From: Terriglobia bacterium
Lineage (GTDB): Bacteria; Acidobacteriota; Terriglobia; JAJPHL01
Reading direction: 5' to 3'
DNA: 64,000 nt
Assembly (NCBI GenBank): GCA_021325275.1
Contig: JAJPHL010000028.1
Location: 1-64,000 of the forward strand
Part shown: in pieces, positions 29,966 to 30,866 of the stretch
Numbering within the stretch: the stretch's first letter is position 1
Layout: each line of letters starts with the position of its first letter
Notes under the pieces: model-generated
What the model was told of the DNA's origin: nothing
Seen by the model: the letters and a program-made list of their open reading frames with translations, nothing else
Databases searched by the model: none
Position numbers and translations under genes: made by a program

Positions 29966-30040
29966 GCGGGAGTAACTCAGCGGTAGAGTGCGACCTTGCC
30001 AAGGTCGAAGTCGCGGGTTCAAATCCCGTCTCCCGCTCCA
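29966..30040 (+). tRNA. tRNA-Gly (GCC)
   Basis: 75 bases with an encoded CCA end. The acceptor GCGGGAG pairs with CTCCCGC, the D arm is ACTC/GAGT, and the anticodon stem CGACC/GGTCG surrounds loop TTGCCAA with anticodon GCC at 29998-30000. The T arm is GCGGG-TTCAAAT-CCCGT. The 3' part from the anticodon onward is repeated exactly at 30822-30866. Confidence 0.97.
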
Positions 30041-30042
30041 TC
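29998..30042 (+). repeat. tRNA-proximal copy of a 45-bp direct repeat (attL-like)
   Basis: 45 bases from the anticodon GCC through the CCA end and two further bases (TC) are identical to 30822-30866. The copy forms the 3' part of the intact tRNA-Gly. A crossover identity block that begins in the anticodon loop is typical of tyrosine-recombinase integration into tRNA genes. Confidence 0.85.
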
Positions 30043-30123
30043 GCCCTGTTTTCAGCCATTTCCAAACCGTCCGCAACGCTGAATGGGCGTTCGAGTTCGA
30101 CCGCGCAAAAGTAGAGGTTGAAG

Positions 30124-30336
30124 ATGGCAGTGCATCAACCCCGCAAGCAGGCCGCAAAATGGACAACCCGCCTCGTCAAAGGCGGATTCCCCGACCGTAC
30201 CTTCGACATTGAATTCTGGCAGCAACAAGGTGACGACGCGATCTTCAGCGCCGCCTGGGAACTCGTCGAACTGGCCGAAGAGACGAAACATGGTCGAAAG
30301 CCCAGACTACAAAGAACTGTTACACGCCTTCAATGA
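30124..30336 (+). CDS. Small partner protein upstream of a nucleotidyltransferase
   Basis: 70 aa. An N-terminal basic part (RKQAAKWTTRLVKGG) precedes FDIEFWQQQGDDAIFSAAWE and a closing PRLQRTVTRLQ. I recall small proteins of this shape (FD-EFW...AAWE...LRLQRSV) directly before this type of nucleotidyltransferase in many bacteria, but know no function. It overlaps the next gene by 47 bases in another frame and lies inside the 824-bp tRNA-bounded cassette. Confidence 0.65.
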   Translation: MAVHQPRKQAAKWTTRLVKGGFPDRTFDIEFWQQQGDDAIFSAAWELVELAEETKHGRKPRLQRTVTRLQ

Positions 30337-30766
30337 GCAGGGTGTTCGCTACCTGATCGTCGGCGGCTACGCCGTGATGAAGTACACCGAGCCGCGCTAC
30401 ACGAAGGATCTCGATGTGTGGGTCGGCAATTCCCCCCGCAATGCCAAACGGGTTTTCGATGCGCTTGTCAAGTTTGGGGCTCCTCTTGGCCGTGACGAAG
30501 TCACCCCCGCGACGTTTCGCAATTCGCACGTCGTGTATCAGATCGGCGTCGCGCCCGTTCGAATCGATATATCCACACACATTGATGGAGTCGGGTTCGC
30601 CGCAGCCTGGAAGAAACGGGTCAAAGGCAGAATCTTCGGAGCCAACGTACACTTCATCTCCTTGGACGATTTGACGAAAAACAAACGAGCCGTTGGCAGA
30701 CGGGCCGATGAGGACGATTTGGAACGGCTAAAGCCTGCCAGGCGGAAAAAACATTTGCCGCGCTAA
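30290..30766 (+). CDS. Nucleotidyltransferase-fold protein (AbiEii/MNT-like)
   Basis: 158 aa. The nucleotidyltransferase signature is present: GGYAV (25-29), then KDLDVW with Asp40 and Asp42 as probable metal ligands. VAPVRIDIS near residue 90 may supply the third acidic residue (Asp94). Related proteins are toxins or antitoxins that modify tRNA or protein partners (AbiE, MNT/HEPN); the partner here is not HEPN-like. ATG 30290 was chosen because the residues upstream are the shadow of the small gene. It is the main cargo of the tRNA-bounded cassette. Confidence 0.72.
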   Translation: MVESPDYKELLHAFNEQGVRYLIVGGYAVMKYTEPRYTKDLDVWVGNSPRNAKRVFDALVKFGAPLGRDEVTPATFRNSHVVYQIGVAPVRIDISTHIDGVGFAAAWKKRVKGRIFGANVHFISLDDLTKNKRAVGRRADEDDLERLKPARRKKHLPR

Positions 30767-30821
30767 AATGCGACCGTGCAAAAGCCGATGTTGAGCCGGG
30801 CCTGATTAGAAACGTCACTTC

Positions 30822-30866
30822 GCCAAGGTCGAAGTCGCGGGTTCAAATCCCGTCTCCCGCTCCATC
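30822..30866 (+). repeat. Distal copy of the 45-bp tRNA-Gly repeat (attR-like)
   Basis: Identical to 29998-30042 but without the 5' half of a tRNA, so it cannot be a working gene. It is followed by TTTTTTG, a T-run that the intact tRNA now lacks, which suggests that this is the original 3' end displaced by an insertion. The unit length between copies is 824 bp. Confidence 0.85.

Follow-up and report, generated by a model that had tools for sequence, protein, structure and literature searches.

A two-gene, integrase-less cassette bounded by tRNA-Gly 3′ halves in an acidobacterial genome

The stretch of DNA analysed here (hereafter, the window) comprises bases 1–64,000 of a 108.3-kb contig from the 6.86-Mb genome, assembled in 75 contigs, of an uncultured acidobacterium. 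Its sole tRNA gene, tRNA-Gly(GCC) (29966–30040, + strand; anticodon at 29998), was called by ARAGORN and matches the Rfam family RF00005 with 69.5 bits. A direct repeat of 45 bp starts at the anticodon of this gene, ends 2 nt past it (29998–30042) and recurs, with 100% identity over 45 bp, at a spacing of 824 bp on the same strand (30822–30866); the repeat search returned the two stretches as a two-copy family, and the expectation of an exact 45-mer arising by chance in a genome of this size is about 1e-20. The distal copy is not a tRNA gene, as ARAGORN makes no call there and the Rfam score of 16.7 bits lies under the 29-bit cut-off. It is followed by TTTTTT (30867–30872, + strand), probably the 3′ flank that belonged to the original tRNA gene and was displaced. 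The sequence after the intact gene, TCGCCCTGTTTTCAG (TCGCCCTGTTTTC), has only a run of four T. Both the tRNA-bounded interval and the T-run confined to the distal copy had been noted in a preliminary description of this DNA, and both were borne out by these analyses. Antisense ORFs on the − strand cover the tRNA gene (29942–30166) as well as its fragment (30763–31080) and have the peptide GRRDLNPRLRPW in common, which would yield spurious protein matches in annotation. Directly past the displaced copy, also on the − strand, lies the gene for a repetitive, probably secreted protein of 1507 aa with 230-bp internal repeats (31285–35808).

According to the ORF list and family scans, the ~780 bp between the repeats contain two genes only and no recombinase, in line with the small protein gene, the overlapping nucleotidyltransferase gene and the lack of an integrase described previously. 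The first gene (30124–30336, + strand) encodes a 70-aa protein of no known family, with no match to PADLOC or NCBIfam models and none to a Pfam family at cut-off. The second, which overlaps it (30290–30766, + strand), encodes a 158-aa nucleotidyltransferase with an intact reading frame and an intact GG...DLD catalytic motif (GGYAVMKYTEPRYTKDLD). This protein passes the cut-off of DUF2204 (21.8 bits versus 20.3) and stays under that of DUF6036. The cargo might be a DUF2204/AbiEii-like enzyme with a small protein, perhaps a toxin–antitoxin-like pair, although this is a guess. It differs from Type IV AbiE toxin–antitoxin systems in that the nucleotidyltransferase does not reach the cut-off of the AbiEii family (PF08843, 14.1 bits versus 22.5; PADLOC AbiEii, E = 0.007) and the 70-aa protein is not recognised as the AbiEi antitoxin partner. 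We also considered, and rejected, a phage origin of the cargo: the nucleotidyltransferase has no match in phages or viral contigs, and its matches in 15 plasmid records are distant. Likewise, the cassette is set apart from phage satellites, which are defined by phage-related genes or phage association, by its lack of phage genes and of viral matches to the nucleotidyltransferase.

Homologues of the small protein and of the nucleotidyltransferase are adjacent, with the order kept, in two other genera (genomes G042 and G068), the nucleotidyltransferase homologue of G068 carrying an in-frame stop. In G042, the pair (positions 9701–10461 of its contig C49) follows, at a distance of ~80–130 bp, a second tRNA-Ser gene with slight alterations; another contig of the same genome has a near-identical tRNA-Ser. 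The preliminary description had proposed a search for the same cassette at other tRNA genes; among the nucleotidyltransferase homologues examined, that of G042 is the only one directly behind a tRNA (tRNA-Ser-like) gene, and no displaced tRNA-Ser fragment is found there.

When the two repeat copies are compared together with their flanks, identity drops to background within 2 nt of the tRNA 3′ end (15 of 40 positions downstream). Such an end of identity disfavours a simple tandem duplication and favours site-specific integration. Duplication of the tRNA 3′ half and its neighbourhood, followed by decay and involving no integrase, does have a lookalike in G020, a genome of another family, where two tandem 1.2-kb units at tRNA-Arg(ACG) (positions 3994960–3997498 of its contig C1) carry near-identical PEP-CTERM-like genes, each unit ends in a tRNA fragment and the flank is repeated too; this arrangement has the look of a tRNA-bounded unit amplified in tandem. 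At tRNA-Gly(GCC), however, the sequences flanking the repeat are unrelated on either side, the gene content is single and the cassette ends coincide with the usual integration target in tRNA genes. We accordingly regard duplication without an integrase as improbable here.

Both ends of the cassette contain a 27-bp site that could be bound by an integrase. The left one (30096–30122, + strand) lies ~55 bp behind the tRNA gene, and the right one (TGCGACCGTGCAAAAGCCGATGTTGAG; 30769–30795, + strand) ends 26 bp before the distal copy. Their match of 21 of 27 positions between the left and right cassette ends was reached by none of 4000 random pairs of equal-length stretches. A third related site (22/27 to the right one, a value reached by 1 of 4000 random pairs) is found at contig position 106915, before a third copy of the repeat (contig positions 107258–107304, outside the window), which is 96% identical over 47 bp and 77 kb downstream. 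When a pattern derived from these three sites was run against the whole genome, it matched nowhere else exactly; with two mismatches it matched twice, and the reversed control five times. Because the motif was spotted by eye ahead of its statistical test and also resembles the tRNA anticodon arm (20/27), its role in integrase binding is put forward as a hypothesis; the sites could be core-like rather than arm sites.

The third repeat copy is not part of a tRNA gene and is located just past a cut-short glycosyltransferase-like reading frame. Its greater divergence would fit an older integration and, taken together with the related 27-bp site before it, suggests that tRNA-Gly has received at least two integrations, of which the cassette is probably the most recent. 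The 76 kb between the second and third copies have the ordinary composition of the host and hold a chemosensory cluster, secreted proteins and other genes, with CheR homologues being patchy in relatives. An older 76-kb island spanning this region was considered and, given the ordinary composition, is not established.

To place the locus in its genomic context, we surveyed ~1.14 Mb of the genome, covering, as far as the contigs reached, up to ~18 kb downstream of nearly all tRNA genes, as well as most positions matching the T-loop consensus. In these parts, 10 of the 46 tRNA genes (Gly-GCC, Arg-TCT, Lys-CTT, Leu-GAG, Gly-CCC, Ser-GGA, Ser-GCT, Val-GAC, Lys-TTT and Leu-TAA) are represented by 15 displaced 3′ fragments, some of which reside on contigs other than that of their tRNA. 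Short integrase-less intervals are found behind Arg-TCT (2.1 and 3.4 kb), Lys-CTT (2.7 kb, the displaced copy again being followed by a T-run) and Leu-GAG (0.43 kb), and between a pair of Val fragments on contig C48 (1.1 kb); the 4.8-kb interval behind Gly-CCC, with 91% identity over 33 bp, is a weaker case. As for Gly, identity ends at the tRNA end in the Arg, Lys and Leu-GAG cases compared. The first gene is co-directional with the tRNA in about nine in ten of the intervals looked at, as counted by eye. Such recurrence at several tRNA genes, and in G020, also bears on the possibility that the assembly joined two places at a common tRNA-derived repeat. The distribution of the genome over 75 contigs speaks for such an artefact, but the k-mers usual in assembly exceed 45 bp, the length of the repeat, and we consider this explanation scarcely credible.

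Tyrosine integrases are encoded next to the tRNA-Ser(GGA) gene on contig C9 and next to a tRNA-Val fragment on C32, and the Lys-TTT fragment lies near an integrase-like C-terminal remnant. The C9 locus (48910–79688), in which tRNA-Ser(GGA) is followed by the tyrosine integrase gene and a 27-bp copy of the tRNA end is found 31 kb on, looks like a classical integrative element. On contig C49 (287892–288263), a tRNA-Val fragment is separated by 280 bp from an exact 46-bp fragment of tRNA-Lys(TTT), the latter being preceded by an ORF whose start is sigma-factor-like and whose C-terminus is integrase-like (GHATDTMALHYSHA); the ~155 bp ahead of this Val fragment are 78% identical to those ahead of a Val fragment on C48.

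Among the matches listed in 60 relatives, all with a matching tRNA and none of the same genus or family, none is a displaced tRNA-Gly(GCC) copy, the single partial match (G044) stopping at a contig end. In the one genome of the same order that was compared, the tRNA-Gly neighbourhood is unrelated. When an empty site was sought through the M50 peptidase gene upstream of the tRNA, none of 14 loci in other organisms had the peptidase gene directly beside tRNA-Gly. An equivalent comparison of tRNA-Arg(TCT) with 150 relatives is uninformative because this tRNA has diverged. Of the tRNA genes examined in G020 (45 ARAGORN calls), three have displaced fragments, namely, the Arg-ACG gene with the tandem units, Thr-TGT, with a 15-kb element that includes an integrase, and Tyr-GTA, with a 2-kb interval.

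A search with PF00589 located integrases only on contigs other than that of the tRNA-Gly cassette, and no helper integrase adjoining the 27-bp sites was found in this genome; nor did the loci examined in relatives contain homologues of its integrases beside tRNA-Gly. A frameshifted relic of a tyrosine integrase is present further along the contig of the cassette (71139–71249, outside the window) and is related to the integrase on C32 that adjoins the tRNA-Val fragment. Integration at the tRNA 3′ end is well supported, by the end of flank identity at the tRNA, the end sites, the recurrence elsewhere and the lack of a displaced Gly copy in the 60 relatives, so that this part of the earlier proposal of a minimal integrated element stands; mobilisation in trans by a tyrosine integrase, its other part, is a putative step.

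Overall, the cassette is likely to be a non-autonomous integrated element for which the integrase was supplied from elsewhere. The tyrosine integrase of another element would act on a circular molecule carrying the 3′ half of tRNA-Gly and recombine it with the tRNA gene in the anticodon region; the tRNA would be rebuilt with the 3′ half of the element, making the intact gene the reconstituted target on the attL side, and the original 3′ half with its T-rich flank would be pushed to the far, attR-like end. Under such a scenario, the empty site would read tRNA-Gly(GCC) followed directly by CTCCATCTTTTTTGTGTCC. The tRNA gene has one promoter-like site upstream, the cargo has the same direction and no + strand terminator was called between the two, suggesting that the cargo might be expressed by read-through from the tRNA promoter.

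The same integration step may have been followed by decay. A larger integrative element could have entered tRNA-Gly and then undergone internal deletions that removed the integrase and other modules. What is left would be a cis-mobilizable element (CIME) with two genes between the att sites, which could move solely through accretion with a new element. We hold this tentative reading to be possible rather than probable, the data agreeing with a deletion remnant nearly as well as with a purpose-built satellite. CIMEs are common and retain their att sites (PMC5704250; PMC7563491), and the genome does contain decayed integrases, namely, the frameshifted relic at 71139–71249 and a truncated one on C49; against this, the 780 bp retain two intact genes and both candidate end sites without an integrase remnant, and the repeat is still exact. 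In their present anatomy, a satellite and a deletion remnant differ in history and not in structure, and small size alone does not discriminate between them. A broader extension of the non-autonomous reading, in which Acidobacteriota possess a tRNA-anchored cassette system of one- or two-gene units with tRNA 3′-half ends, inserted repeatedly behind various tRNA genes by integrases acting in trans, mostly co-directional and served by the tRNA promoter in an integron-like manner, is unlikely on present data.

Because island finders usually seek integrases, tRNA-bounded segments that lack one are easy to overlook. In the genome studied here, about one-fifth of the tRNA genes have displaced 3′ fragments, and similar intervals of 1–2 kb occur in G020, the relative from another family. 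If such units move in trans, they would allow single genes to be acquired in a soil phylum that is dominant and poorly studied; should they be remnants, the tRNA fragments would still provide a cheap record of past integrations.

Among known systems, tycheposons resemble the cassette in carrying cargo and being bordered by a tRNA gene, but they are described as spanning 4–200 kb, and those of Methylophilaceae as encoding a tyrosine recombinase (PMC10872708; PMC11389934), whereas the cassette has ~0.78 kb and no such recombinase inside, the relic at 71139–71249 being confined to the neighbouring stretch. Gene cassettes of integrons and CALINs are also small gene units between recombination sites with the integrase elsewhere (PMC11389934); here, by contrast, the sites are tRNA 3′ halves rather than attC, and no integron integrase is implicated. 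For the phylum itself, the portion of the Solibacter genome account that we consulted reports integrases and islands near tRNA genes and does not describe integrase-less tRNA-bounded cassettes (PMC3174227). In fGI-2 of ‘Ca. Methylopumilus’, an additive flexible genomic island anchored on a tRNA gene, islands of 330 bp to 42 kb with 1–63 CDS are marked by repeated tRNA ends, which consist of the final 20 nt of tRNA-Lys(CTT) (PMC10872708). The contig of the cassette similarly has three recurring copies of a tRNA end, although here the repeated stretch is 45 bp of tRNA-Gly, and displaced ends of more than one kind of tRNA gene occur in this one genome. CIMEs have att sites at their ends and no recombination or transfer genes, and successive att copies stand in tandem at one target, as in Streptococcus (PMC5704250; PMC7563491). 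The cassette likewise keeps attL and attR, with the exact 45-bp repeat at both ends, lacks recombination and conjugation genes and has successive att copies in tandem at tRNA-Gly(GCC); it differs in its target, the anticodon half of a tRNA gene, and in its acidobacterial host, and descent from an ICE or IME is assumed only under the deletion reading. With 0.78 kb and two genes, it falls between the classical CIMEs (1.2–13 kb) and the gene-less microCIMEs (130–220 bp) of S. salivarius. Of the known kinds, tandemly accreted CIMEs and additive flexible islands anchored on tRNA genes come closest, and the cassette is a very small case of these in a little-studied phylum.
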